Assembly (NCBI GenBank): GCA_913065025.1
Contig: CAJYAP010000010.1
Span: forward strand, 1 to 36,133
Reading direction: 5' to 3'
Origin: an uncultured Gammaproteobacteria bacterium
GTDB taxonomy: Bacteria; Pseudomonadota; Gammaproteobacteria; Poriferisulfidales; GCA-002705445
DNA: 36,133 nucleotides
A program made the position numbers and the translations under genes. The notes beneath the pieces are model-generated. The model saw only the letters and a list, made by a program, of their open reading frames with translations. It had not been told where the DNA came from and ran no database searches. Of this stretch, positions 2,040 through 36,133 are shown piece after piece (the first letter of the stretch is position 1; each line of letters begins with the position of its first letter).

Positions 2040-3125
2040 TTAAACGTTGTACCTAAATACAACAATATCTCCTTCAGCAACTTGATATTCTTTTCCCTCT
2101 AAGCGCATTTTACCTTCATTTTTAGCATTCACTGATCCCTTAAGTTCCACATAATCATCAAATGCAATAACCTCAGCTCTAATAAACCCTTTTTGAAAAT
2201 CAGTATGAATCTTCCCAGCTGCTTCAGGAGCCAATGCATTTTTTTTTATAGTCCATGCTCTGGTTTCTGTTGGCCCAGATGTAAAAAATGTACCAAGATT
2301 TAAAATATCATAACCATGTTTTGCTACTCTATCTATTCCAGATTCTTCAAGATTATATAATTCAAAATATTCTTTTTTTTCTTCGTCACTCATCATAGAT
2401 AAATCGTATTCTATATTCGCTGAAATTATTATATTAGAGATATTTTTTTCTTCGCAATATTTCTCAACATCTTTTGTGAATTGGTTACCATTTATTTCGT
2501 CATCTGAGACATTTAAAATAAGAAAAAATGGTTTTGCCGTTAGAAAATTATATTGCTTAAGAAGTTCTTTGTTATCTCTATATATATTTTGTAAGAAATT
2601 ACCATTATTTAATTCTTGCTCAATTTCTTCCATGACTTTTAACTCTGGCATTATTTCTTTATTACCTGTTTTAGAAAGCTTTTTTAAACGGACTAAACTT
2701 TTTTCTACTATAGCCAAATCAGATAATAATAACTCGGTATTAATTGTTTGAATATCCGAGATTGGATCTATTTTCCCTGACACGTGAGTAATATCATCAT
2801 TTTCAAAACATCTAATTACATGTGCAATTGCATCTGTCTCTCTAATATTTGCCAAGAATTTATTACCAAGGCCCTCGCCTTCAGACGCCCCAGCAACTAA
2901 ACCCGCTATGTCTACAAATTCTATGACTGCTGGAATAACCTTTTTTGGTTCATCAATATCAGAAAGTTGCTTTAATCTTTTGTCATTAACTTCTACGATC
3001 CCAACATTCGGATCAATCGTACAGAATGGATAATTTTCGGCAGCAACTTTATTTTTTGTTAGAGCATTAAATAGAGTAGATTTACCAACATTTGGCAAAC
3101 CAACTATTCCACATTTAAATCCCAT
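2040..3125 (-). CDS. ychF: redox-regulated ATPase YchF (Obg-family)
   Basis: 361 residues, the usual YchF length. The N-terminus carries a P-loop (GLPNVGKST, residues 9-17), followed by switch-region sequences and the DIAGLVAGASEGEGLGN stretch that is diagnostic for YchF. The C-terminus has the TGS-like domain ending in VAEGDIVVFRYNV. YchF is a ribosome-associated P-loop protein of the Obg family that prefers ATP over GTP and is linked to oxidative stress and translation. It follows pth with a three-base gap on the same strand and precedes tRNA-Met, as in other gammaproteobacteria. Confidence 0.97.
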   Translation of the reverse strand: MGFKCGIVGLPNVGKSTLFNALTKNKVAAENYPFCTIDPNVGIVEVNDKRLKQLSDIDEPKKVIPAVIEFVDIAGLVAGASEGEGLGNKFLANIRETDAIAHVIRCFENDDITHVSGKIDPISDIQTINTELLLSDLAIVEKSLVRLKKLSKTGNKEIMPELKVMEEIEQELNNGNFLQNIYRDNKELLKQYNFLTAKPFFLILNVSDDEINGNQFTKDVEKYCEEKNISNIIISANIEYDLSMMSDEEKKEYFELYNLEESGIDRVAKHGYDILNLGTFFTSGPTETRAWTIKKNALAPEAAGKIHTDFQKGFIRAEVIAFDDYVELKGSVNAKNEGKMRLEGKEYQVAEGDIVVFRYNV

Positions 3126-32722: not shown

Positions 32723-33199
32723 ATGAAAAAGATAGAAATTGGCAAAAAAATTAAAAATTTTACAGCAGAATCAACAAATAAAGATGAATTCAATTTAAAA
32801 AACTATTTAGGTAGTCATATCGTGCTATTTTTTTATCCAAAAGATAATACGCCAGGCTGCACTCAAGAGGGTATAGAATTCTCAGAAAATTTTAGGAAAT
32901 TTAAAAATTCAAATGCATTTATATTTGGAATATCAAGAGACAGCATCAAGTCTCATAATAATTTTAAAGAAAAATTTAAGTATAAATTTGATTTAATTAG
33001 CGATGCGGATGAATATATTTGTAATTTATTTGACGTTATAAAAGAAAAAAATATGTACGGAAAAAAATATATGGGAATTGAAAGAAGTACTTTTATTTTG
33101 AACGAAAAAGGAATTTTAATTAAAGAGTGGAGAAAAGTTAAAGTTAACGGTCATGCTGAAGAAGTTTTAAAGTTCATTAAAGAATTAAATAAAAATTAA
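32723..33199 (+). CDS. bcp: thioredoxin-dependent peroxiredoxin Bcp/PrxQ, lacking the usual resolving Cys
   Basis: 158 residues. The peroxidatic cysteine is Cys46 in FFYPKDNTPGCTQEGIEF and the supporting Arg lies in GIERSTFIL. E. coli Bcp has a resolving Cys five residues later (Cys50); here that position is Ile or Glu and only Cys101 remains as a second cysteine. It may therefore act as a 1-Cys type or use another resolving partner. The enzyme reduces hydrogen peroxide and lipid peroxides. The ATG has GAGGA upstream (AGAGGATTATT). Its stop codon shares the bases TTAA with the stop of the convergent lysR. Confidence 0.93.
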   Translation: MKKIEIGKKIKNFTAESTNKDEFNLKNYLGSHIVLFFYPKDNTPGCTQEGIEFSENFRKFKNSNAFIFGISRDSIKSHNNFKEKFKYKFDLISDADEYICNLFDVIKEKNMYGKKYMGIERSTFILNEKGILIKEWRKVKVNGHAEEVLKFIKELNKN

Positions 33200-34083
33200 T
33201 TACAGCTTCTTGCATAATCGATAAGTTCATCAGTAACTTTTAATCTAAACTTATGGCGTTTTTTTACGAAATAAAAATTTCGCGTTAATTTTGGACTTAA
33301 AGGTACATACGACAATCTATTTAATTCTATCTCTTTTTCAATAGTTGTTTTTGATAGTATGGATACACCAATACCAGTTTCGACTGCACCTTTAACTGAT
33401 TCTGAATTTCCTAATTCCATACATACTTTGATACTATTTTTTTCTATTTTTTGTTTTGAAAAATAATCAAATATTACAGATTTTGTTCCTGAGCCCTCTT
33501 CTCTAATAATAAATGGGAGATCTATTATTTCCATTGGTTTCACTGAACTACGTCCAGCTAATTCATGTTGTGGGTGTGTAATCAAAACTAGTTCGTCTGC
33601 TCTAAAAATATCAACATCTAAATCTTGATTTAAAACTGGGGCTTCTACAATTCCTAAATCAATCATAGAGCTTTCAACTTTAGCAACAATTCCATCTGTA
33701 TTTGCCTCACAAATTCTAATACTTAGATCAGGATATTTTTCTCTAAAGCCTTTCAAAAGTGATGGTAAAGTATACTGTGCGATTGTCGTACTCCCACCTA
33801 TTGATAACGTTCCAGACGTATCCTCAGATAAAGCTCTTAATGAATGCTCCATCTCAGCATTAAGCTCAAAAATTTTTTCTGCATAAAAGTATACTTTCTG
33901 ACCAGCATCAGTAAGTAAAATTTTATTATGCGTTCTGTCAAAAAGTCTAGTATTAAAATGATCTTCAAGCTGTCTAACCTGAAATGTTACTGCTGGCTGA
34001 GTCATATGCAAAGTTTCAGCAGCTTTTGTAAAACTTAAAAGTTTAGCCACAGTATAAAAAACTTGTAATCTCCTATCCGACAT
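33196..34083 (-). CDS. LysR-family transcriptional regulator (CbbR/CysB-like group)
   Basis: 295 residues. N-terminal winged helix-turn-helix (about 1-60) with LLSFTKAAETLHMTQPAVTFQVRQLE, the standard LysR recognition region, then a two-lobed effector domain starting near residue 90 (GTLSIGGSTTIAQYTLP). The effector lobe resembles LysR proteins of carbon fixation or sulfur metabolism, but the ligand cannot be told. AGGA is spaced about five bases from the ATG. It is divergent from proS over 93 bases that contain a perfect 10-bp inverted repeat, a plausible own binding site. It may only regulate itself or act on distant genes. Confidence 0.92.
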   Translation of the reverse strand: MSDRRLQVFYTVAKLLSFTKAAETLHMTQPAVTFQVRQLEDHFNTRLFDRTHNKILLTDAGQKVYFYAEKIFELNAEMEHSLRALSEDTSGTLSIGGSTTIAQYTLPSLLKGFREKYPDLSIRICEANTDGIVAKVESSMIDLGIVEAPVLNQDLDVDIFRADELVLITHPQHELAGRSSVKPMEIIDLPFIIREEGSGTKSVIFDYFSKQKIEKNSIKVCMELGNSESVKGAVETGIGVSILSKTTIEKEIELNRLSYVPLSPKLTRNFYFVKKRHKFRLKVTDELIDYARSCN

Positions 34084-34115
34084 TTTTCCTCGCTTTTATG
34101 GGAGTATTCTCCTCT

Positions 34116-34121
34116 TATAAT
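34116..34121 (+). promoter_or_regulatory. candidate -10 box for proS
   Basis: TATAAT at 34116-34121 is a perfect -10 match about 55 bases before the proS ATG and directly next to the inverted repeat at 34123-34161. No good -35 is seen 16-18 bases upstream, so the promoter may need an activator or be a chance match in AT-rich sequence. Confidence 0.35.
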
Positions 34122-34122
34122 A

Positions 34123-34161
34123 TTAAGTTATATCATATATCATATAAACTTTATAACTTAA
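34123..34161. promoter_or_regulatory. perfect 10-bp inverted repeat between lysR and proS, possible operator
   Basis: TTAAGTTATA at 34123-34132 and TATAACTTAA at 34152-34161 are exact reverse complements with a 19-base spacer that contains ATATCAT-like direct repeats. Location in a LysR divergent promoter region and a size near that of LysR-bound regions suggest an operator. The sequence is A/T-rich, so a chance hairpin is possible. Confidence 0.45.
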
Positions 34162-34176
34162 ATTGATTGTCGAAAT

Positions 34177-35469
34177 ATGAGATACACTAAATCCGGTATT
34201 ACAACAACAAAAAATACTCCTAAAGATGCAGAGATTATTAGTCATAAACTAATGATTAGATCAGGCATGGTAAAAAAATTGGCGTCTGGTTTGTATACTT
34301 GGATGCCTCTAGGTTTAAAGGTTTTAAAGAAAATTGAAAATATAATAAGAGAAGAAATGAATAGAGCTGACGCTCTTGAGATCTTAATGCCTGCAGTGCA
34401 ACCTTCGGAACTTTGGAAAGAGTCAGGAAGGTGGGATAAATACGGGCCAGAACTACTTAGAATAACTGACAGACATGAAAGAGAGTTTTGTTTTGGACCA
34501 ACTCACGAAGAAATTATTACTGACATAGCTAGAAAAGATATAAATAGTTACAAACAATTGCCAATTATATATTATCAAATACAAACTAAGTTTAGAGACG
34601 AAATTAGACCGAGGTTCGGAGTAATGCGAGCACGAGAATTTTTAATGAAAGACGCTTATTCATTTCATGAAAATGAAGAATGCTTAAATAAAACTTATAA
34701 AATTATGTTTGAAGCATATAAGAATTGTTTTAATAAAATTGGATTTGAGTATAAAGTAGTTAATGCTGATAATGGGCAAATTGGTGGTAGTGAATCTCAT
34801 GAATTTCACGTAATTGCAGATAACGGAGAAGATGAGTTAATTTTCTCAGACTCTTCTGATTACGCTATAAATGCAGAATTATTTACTAGACCTCCAAAAG
34901 AAGGTGATGCATGCCCAGATGGTTCTGGAAAAGTAAAAATTAAGAGAGGAATTGAAGTCGGTCACATTTTTAAGCTTGGTAAAAATTACTCTGAGGCGAT
35001 GAATGCCAGCATTTCTAACAAAGAAAATAAAAATATAAAAATGACTATGGGTTGTTATGGTATTGGCGTATCAAGAATTGCTGCTGCGGCAATTGAGCAA
35101 TCAAATGATGAAAAAGGAATTATTTGGCCAAAATCAATCGCGCCTTATTTAATTACAATAATATCTATTGGTTATACAAAAAACGATATTGTAAAAAATT
35201 ATACAGACAGTCTTTATGAAGAATTAGAGAATAATAATATAGAAGTTTTGTTGGATGATAGAGACATAAGCCCGGGAAATATGTTTTCAGATTCTGAGCT
35301 AATTGGAATACCTTATAGTGTAATTATTGGAAAGCAATTTATAGAAAATAATAATTTTGAATTCAAAGATCGAAAGTTTGATAAAACCTCTACAATTAAT
35401 GAAAATAATAATACTGAAAAACCAACAAAAGAAGCCTTAAAGTCTATTTTAAAACTTATTAATGGATAA
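34177..35469 (+). CDS. proS: prolyl-tRNA synthetase without the editing (INS) domain
   Basis: 430 residues, against 572 in E. coli. Class II core present: SGLYTWMPLGLKVLKK, motif 2 region FRDEIRPRFGVMRAREFLMKD, the GSESHEFHV substrate loop, and motif 3 in GCYGIGVSRIAAAAIEQ, then an anticodon-binding domain. The roughly 180-residue insertion between motifs 2 and 3 that clears Ala-tRNA-Pro is replaced by a short linker (about residues 230-270). Such short bacterial enzymes are known from alphaproteobacteria, where a separate ProXp-ala often does the editing. The ATG matches the conserved N-terminus. It is monocistronic as far as seen. Confidence 0.96.
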   Translation: MRYTKSGITTTKNTPKDAEIISHKLMIRSGMVKKLASGLYTWMPLGLKVLKKIENIIREEMNRADALEILMPAVQPSELWKESGRWDKYGPELLRITDRHEREFCFGPTHEEIITDIARKDINSYKQLPIIYYQIQTKFRDEIRPRFGVMRAREFLMKDAYSFHENEECLNKTYKIMFEAYKNCFNKIGFEYKVVNADNGQIGGSESHEFHVIADNGEDELIFSDSSDYAINAELFTRPPKEGDACPDGSGKVKIKRGIEVGHIFKLGKNYSEAMNASISNKENKNIKMTMGCYGIGVSRIAAAAIEQSNDEKGIIWPKSIAPYLITIISIGYTKNDIVKNYTDSLYEELENNNIEVLLDDRDISPGNMFSDSELIGIPYSVIIGKQFIENNNFEFKDRKFDKTSTINENNNTEKPTKEALKSILKLING

Positions 35470-35544
35470 TAATCAAAGACTAATACGTACATCATTTCTC
35501 GTTAATATCATAATATAATCAAATACTTAAATATACATAAACAC

Positions 35545-35572
35545 TTGACGGAACACTTATTTCTAGTAAATT
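35545..35572 (+). promoter_or_regulatory. candidate promoter of the substrate-binding protein gene
   Basis: TTGACG at 35545-35550 (5 of 6 to the -35 consensus) is followed after 16 bases by TAAATT at 35567-35572 (4 of 6 to the -10 consensus). A start near 35580 would give a leader of about 170 bases. This is the best -35 match in the 279-base gap. Confidence 0.5.
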
Positions 35573-35579
35573 AGATAGT

Positions 35580-35741
35580 CCACCTTTAAGTTATTTTAAT
35601 AATTTTTTGGTGGCTCAGGTAATCAGGAGGATCAGAGAAATACTGAGTTTTGAAATAGGCCTGAGTTTAAGTAAGTAGGATGAAAACAATAATAAAATTG
35701 TTCATTCTGCAGTTAACTGCAACATGAACCTCTTAAGGAGG
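35580..35741 (+). ncRNA. structured 5' leader of the substrate-binding protein mRNA, class unknown
   Basis: Several helices can be drawn. CCACC at 35580-35584 pairs with GGTGG at 35609-35613. CTCAGG at 35614-35619 pairs with CCTGAG at 35660-35665, or alternatively with CTGAG at 35643-35647. TCAG 35632-35635 pairs with CTGA 35643-35646. GTTCAT 35700-35705 pairs with ATGAAC 35724-35729, with GCAG/CTGC (35709-35712/35717-35720) inside. CCTC 35729-35732 can pair with the ribosome-binding GAGG 35738-35741. The last helix would hide the ribosome binding site, and the helices share bases, as in a switch. No T run follows, so control would be on translation or mRNA stability. It matches no riboswitch consensus I know. 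Confidence 0.5.
35680..35727 (+). CDS. possible 15-residue leader peptide upstream of the substrate-binding protein
   Basis: ATG at 35680 opens a frame that ends in TGA at 35725-35727, encoding MKTIIKLFILQLTAT. A purine-rich AGTAGG directly precedes the ATG but is closer than a normal ribosome binding site. The frame runs through the hairpin at 35700-35729, so ribosomes translating it would disrupt that helix and could change exposure of the downstream ribosome binding site. A short frame can occur by chance, so this is tentative. Confidence 0.3.
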   Translation: MKTIIKLFILQLTAT

Positions 35742-35748
35742 AGTACAA

Positions 35749-36133
35749 ATGAAAATAAAAGCAATAATTACTAGTATAGCGCTTTTGACTTCACTCGCTT
35801 TTACAGCACCTGTAGTACAGGCTGCCGATGGCGAATTATACGTACCAATCCCTAGTTACCGTGTCGGCCCATATGCTGTGGGTGGAACTGGTTACTTTGG
35901 TGGGATTTTAGACTATTACAATCTATTAAACATGCGTGATGGTGGTGTTAATGGAATGAAATTAGTTTGGTCGGAATGTGAAACAGAGTATTCTGTGGAA
36001 CGTGGCGTTGAGTGTTATAAACGTTTAAAAGATAACAAAGGTGGAGCTGTATTCTTTGACCCATTAAGTGTGGGTATATCTACTGCTTTGATTGAAACTG
36101 GTCGTAAAGACAAGATGCCAATCATTGCTGTAA
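35749..36133 (+). CDS. periplasmic substrate-binding protein of a branched-chain amino-acid-type ABC transporter (3' truncated)
   Basis: At least 128 residues, cut by the window end. Signal peptide with cleavage after VQA at about 24. The mature protein begins ADGELYVPIPSYRVGPYAVG and continues with YFGGILDYYNLLNMRDGGVNG, the LivK/UrtA-like type I fold in which the first strand is followed by a ligand loop. It then has two Cys (in SECETEY and VECYKRL) that may form a disulfide. The substrate is unknown; amino acids, urea-like amides or aromatic compounds are all possible for this group. Strong ribosome binding site GGAGG seven bases before the ATG. All five Arg codons are CGT, unlike the AGA used elsewhere, which suggests very high expression. 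Confidence 0.88.
   Translation, partial: MKIKAIITSIALLTSLAFTAPVVQAADGELYVPIPSYRVGPYAVGGTGYFGGILDYYNLLNMRDGGVNGMKLVWSECETEYSVERGVECYKRLKDNKGGAVFFDPLSVGISTALIETGRKDKMPIIAV

Follow-up and report, generated by a model that had tools for sequence, protein, structure and literature searches.

A periplasmic binding protein gene with a long folded leader

The window analysed here is a stretch of 36,133 nucleotides from an uncultured gammaproteobacterium (contig CAJYAP010000010.1), and its 3' end carries a gene for a periplasmic substrate-binding protein with the Pfam domain Peripla_BP_6, resembling 4ru0, an uncharacterised branched-chain-type binding protein. The contig end cuts the gene, leaving the first 128 residues of a protein that in relatives has about 450 amino acids. 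The gene stands alone, 3' of proS; its homologues, whether in the order's second family or in other proteobacteria, lie mostly inside livG-livH-livM-SBP-livF-like operons. A LysR regulator, proS and the orphan gene adjoin in the window (33196-36132), and the same arrangement was seen in L037, from a distant clade. In the genus, three assemblies have contigs that end within the binding protein gene (window 36072-36133; contig ends G006:C4 and G008:C4) and overlap by about 60 bp, which suggests a stretch common to co-occurring strains or species.

A preliminary description of the locus had called the protein highly expressed, and codon usage agrees with this. C-ending twofold codons make up 40% in the binding protein gene vs 8-29% in its neighbours, and CGT accounts for 75% of its arginine codons vs 0-17% in most other genes of the window, a bias that supports very high expression. 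Within the genus the fourfold sites of the gene are 83% identical, compared with 40% for those of proS, which we read as a strong sign of translational selection.

Upstream of the gene we found a predicted sigma-70 promoter (Table 1), whose TTGAC and TAAATT boxes are kept in the genus while the spacer between them is only about 60% identical (61% mean pairwise, nine genomes). Judging from these boxes, the RNA is expected to start near 35577-35580, just before a hairpin that we call P1. The predicted leader of about 170 nt (35578-35748) had a minimum free energy of -44.9 kcal/mol compared with a mean of -32.3 kcal/mol for shuffled sequences (sd 3.75, z -3.37), none of the 200 shuffles was as stable, and the complementary helices previously noted were all present. 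The leaders of relatives were likewise more stable than their shuffles in every case (z -2.3 to -5.8). The proposal that a terminal pairing covers the ribosome binding site was also borne out, since the anti-SD/SD hairpin is conserved and the partition function leaves the SD core (35739-35741) 97-99% paired. No intrinsic terminator with a U tract was present in the leader ahead of the gene.

P2 contains a copy of the SD, AGGAGGA (window 35625-35631), which offers a conceivable partner for the anti-SD strand. A decoy of this kind, between AGGAGG of P2 and CCUCUU, is allowed by the sequence; we rejected it on finding it about 9 kcal/mol worse and missing in the sister genus. A leader peptide starting from the ATG of P3 or from the ATG at 35724 was also rejected, the frames of the small ORFs differing among genomes.

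Rfam 15 gave no match in the leader region at the gathering cut-off, and a permissive scan of 35540-35760 returned nothing but unrelated matches that scored far under their cut-offs, so that the earlier statement that the leader fits no known consensus holds even at permissive thresholds. The fetched loci of eight relatives also gave no Rfam match to the leader. A search of the literature turned up analogues and did not find the leader element itself.

Table 1. Features of the leader and the controlled gene (window coordinates), and leaders of homologues elsewhere (coordinates of their own loci)
Feature	Position	Strand	Elements	Remarks
Predicted sigma-70 promoter	35545-35572	+	-35 TTGACG (35545-35550), 16-nt spacer, -10 TAAATT (35567-35572)	Boxes conserved in genus
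P1	35580-35613	+	Hairpin at predicted 5' end; CCACC/GGTGG (35580-35584/35609-35613) and inner stem	Pairing kept despite drift
P2	35614-35665	+	CTCAGGT/GCCTGAG (35614-35620/35659-35665); inner stems P2b and P2c, TCAGGA/TTTTGA and CAG/CTG	86% identical in genus
P3	35675-35710	+	GTAGGATGAA-aa-CAAT / ATTGTTCATTCTGC (35675-35690/35697-35710)	98% of cells paired
P4 (alternative to P3)	35700-35729	+	GTTCAT/ATGAAC around palindrome TGCAGTTAACTGCA (35708-35721)	Invariant in nine genomes, kept in L010
Anti-SD/SD hairpin	35729-35743	+	35729-35733/35737-35741; CCTCT/GGAGG with P3, or CTCTT/AGGAG with P4	100% identical in genus
Orphan PF13458 periplasmic substrate-binding protein gene (controlled gene)	35749-36132	+		Pfam 1.4e-10; 4ru0 relative 1.5e-115
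Unrelated folded leaders of orphan homologues	L031, L032, L033, L037: about 2780-3000; L034: about 2400-2624			

Conservation of sequence and pairing within the genus

We compared the window genome with eight congeners (nine close genomes) and with L010 of the sister genus. The leader recurs once per genome, 5' of the same gene, in all eight congeners. Mean pairwise identity among the nine genomes was 50% in P1, 86% in P2 and 94% in the P3 5' strand; it reached 100% over the 46 nt that begin at 35698 and include the SD. The P1 hairpin was more stable than shuffled sequences in eight of the nine genomes (p <= 0.024; the exception was L003, p 0.098). Three of its pairs have changed on both sides, and its covariation score exceeded those of all shuffles and all slid registers. 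By sequence comparison P1 is thus the clearest case, in which the sequence drifts in an approximately neutral-looking manner while the pairing is retained through compensatory changes.

P2 showed consistent changes (G-C/G-U and U-G/C-G), and all changes in P2 and P3 were one-sided and compatible. The unpaired bases of P2 at 35654-35658 (AATAG) are conserved in the genus, and 11 of 20 unpaired positions are invariant. With P3, P4 and the SD hairpin nearly invariant and P2 showing one-sided changes only, these helices can be neither proved nor refuted by covariation; the covariation check proposed for orthologous leaders was informative in P1 and found the other helices too conserved to show any. 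Conserved pairing in the orthologous leaders nevertheless exceeds the neutral expectation, with compensatory changes in P1 only, and by its conserved pairing we take the leader to be probably a genuine structured cis element.

Two mutually exclusive folds of the 3' half

The sequence TTCAT can pair either with GGATGAA on its 5' side, forming P3, or with ATGAAC on its 3' side, forming P4, so that the two helices are mutually exclusive, and this alternative is conserved. The preliminary description had also proposed an either/or pairing and had assigned it to CTCAGG. A conserved choice does exist, between P3 and P4, which were not named there; the CTCAGG version did not hold up, as its second partner, CTGAG at 35643-35647, is retained by just two of the nine genomes and costs about 9 kcal/mol.

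The P4 state was calculated to lie above the P3 state by 3.0 kcal/mol in the window and by 1.4-2.4 kcal/mol in three relatives (four genomes computed), and in the window it is rare at equilibrium (about 0.4%). When P3 is formed, the anti-SD/SD pairing is CCTCT/GGAGG; when P4 is formed, the register shifts to CTCTT/AGGAG, directly abutting P4. By prediction the SD is thus covered whichever helix forms, and its opening would require a factor. The csrA gene was found in five of five genera of the order, though not in the incomplete window genome, and the genus has an Hfq gene; CsrA and Hfq are therefore candidate trans-factors, both being encoded in the genus. The conserved GGA motifs of the leader are mostly paired, and the CsrA consensus (ANGGA in hairpin loops) fits only partly.

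Occurrence of the leader outside the genus

In L010 we found a diverged version of the leader, in which other hairpins take the place of P1 and P2, the one at P2 being unrelated. The 10-nt GUAGGAUGAA is displaced upstream there and is still able to pair with UUCAUUCUGC, and the covariance model pairs the displaced P3 5' strand GTAGGATGAA with the invariant TTCATTCTGC. Such independent retention of this strand is good support for P3. A further SD-like sequence, UAGGAG, lies outside the hairpin in L010, whose ribosome site may therefore be exposed.

The second family of the order keeps only the 14-mer GCAGTTAACTGCAA, which is invariant there too, and the SD hairpin (CCTCTTA-TAGGAGG), apparently in a shorter leader; P2 is absent although the protein is retained. 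The leaders with GCAGTTAACTGCAA in this family (L011-L016) could form either of two exclusive hairpins, UGCU-GAAA-AGCA or GCUUGC/GCAAGC, just 3' of TTGCTA-N17-TACAAA, which was read by eye as a possible promoter. The joint pattern GCAGTTAACTGC...CCTCTNA occurred once each in 16 genomes of the order, which belong to two families and have it 5' of the binding protein gene; it was missing in the third family and in two genomes with contigs broken inside the gene. A class-wide pattern search outside the order gave isolated, chance-like matches, comparable in number with the reversed-pattern control. When the full covariance model was run with strict filters on 143 Gammaproteobacteria genomes, it matched in the genus only, with no extra copies, the window's own genome included, and none on other genes. 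Orphan homologues from other clades of Gammaproteobacteria (L031/L032 and L033/L034/L037) are preceded by long folded leaders whose sequences are unrelated, and all of these close with an anti-SD/SD pairing (Table 1).

The leader is therefore confined to one order, P2 has given way to another hairpin in the sister genus, and the leaders of close orthologues elsewhere are unrelated, which means that protein and RNA do not travel together. This argues against a widespread riboswitch, and the idea that the leader is an element for the solute bound by the protein finds no backing in it. Leaders of this kind can show rapid turnover although the gene itself is retained.

A proposed role for the leader

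With moderate confidence we propose that the leader is a cis-acting, lineage-specific RNA, about 170 nt long, by which the translation, and perhaps the stability, of the mRNA of an abundant binding protein is set and probably regulated. A lineage-specific translational or stability element fits the data better than a widespread metabolite riboswitch. Transcription would start just before P1, and this stable hairpin would shield the RNA 5' end. The 3' half would adopt one of two exclusive folds, as deduced from sequence and energetics only. In the P3 state UUCAUUCUGC would pair back to GUAGGAUGAA; in the P4 state GUUCAU would pair forward with AUGAAC around GCAGUUAACUGC, and the anti-SD/SD register would be moved onto AGGAG. 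A trans-acting factor would recognise the invariant 3' core and shift the balance between P3 and P4 or open the SD. CsrA, a cold-shock protein or another protein could act in this way, as could an Hfq-assisted sRNA; a small molecule is less likely. What points to a two-state regulated leader is the identity of 46 nt vs 40% at the proS fourfold sites, the pairing kept in P1, the displaced strand of L010, the anti-SD/SD hairpin in two families, the gap of 1.4-3 kcal/mol between P3 and P4, and the codon-optimised orphan gene with its own promoter boxes. The regulatory reading of the preliminary description can accordingly be kept as far as a structured leader, conserved in orthologues and with its own predicted promoter, is concerned, without its CTCAGG switch and its solute element.

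The main rival, rather unlikely in our judgement, is an unregulated aid to expression, in which no signal is sensed: 5'-end-dependent decay of an abundant mRNA would be held off by the 5' hairpins, which would also insulate its start region. The location of P1 at the predicted 5' end and its conservation in pairing only would suit such an aid, as would the codon-optimised gene and the different yet folded leaders of orthologues in other clades. It leaves unexplained, however, why 46 nt, loops among them, are invariant, why an anti-SD strand covering the SD is conserved, and why P3 and P4 exclude each other. The leader could also belong to an undescribed class of regulatory RNA, a solute or stress sensor that would toggle P3 and P4 to set the translation of a dominant marine binding protein, and in which GCAGUUAACUGCAA and the anti-SD hairpin would be the ancestral core and lineage-specific sensor domains would have been added upstream; this we consider unlikely. 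Quite improbable is a metabolite riboswitch with P2 as a small aptamer that binds the transported solute and with P3/P4 and the SD hairpin as its expression platform. The invariant unpaired bases of P2 within the genus, a transporter gene with an SD hairpin downstream of P2 and the lack of an Rfam family are what such a riboswitch would show, but P2 does not follow the protein into the sister genus or the second family, no copies were found on other genes or in the 143 Gammaproteobacteria genomes, so that conservation of an aptamer across clades was not seen, and known aptamers are usually more conserved than P2. Very improbable is a DNA operator, with TGCAGTTAACTGCA as a repressor site and RNA folding incidental, since this palindrome, though perfect, invariant across two families and just downstream of the promoter read by eye in the second family, lies about 130 nt beyond the predicted start in the window, has no other sites with 0-1 mismatch in four genomes (2-mismatch sites are not shared) and does not account for the conserved flanks, P1 or the displaced P3 strand of L010. 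A multi-site transcription-factor regulon for the palindrome was rejected, no shared second site being found in the four genomes.

The proposed regulated leader can be compared with several known systems. The ompA leader of Escherichia coli carries a stabilising hairpin at the 5' end of the mRNA of a very abundant envelope protein. The leader described here shares a (predicted) hairpin at this position, and differs in its paired SD and in a 3' core that is invariant in sequence. Leaders controlled by ribosomal proteins or CsrA combine alternative helices, a sequestered SD and a lineage-restricted RNA. The window leader shares the restricted range and, by prediction, the alternative helices and the covered SD, and csrA is present in the genus; in contrast to those systems, the product of the window gene is periplasmic, so there is no obvious autoregulation, and the GGA motifs are mostly paired. 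The rhtB element of Pelagibacter is a candidate structured RNA of streamlined marine bacteria that precedes a locus also holding livM/livK and is often followed by a poly-U tract (PMC2704228). It resembles our leader as a candidate conserved leader RNA of a small-genome plankton bacterium, but comes from another clade, and the window leader has neither a terminator nor an Rfam match. For sfuC of SAR11, post-transcriptional control has been proposed to involve CspE/CspL (PMC2864753). In that case too the translation of a marine binding protein is taken to be under the control of mRNA structure, although no leader element was defined there and both solute and organism are different.

Small-genome ocean bacteria count binding proteins among their most abundant proteins, and little is known about how the synthesis of these is controlled. 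An uncatalogued conserved leader with a hidden ribosome site on such a gene offers a concrete and testable case of control at the RNA level in an uncultured marine lineage.
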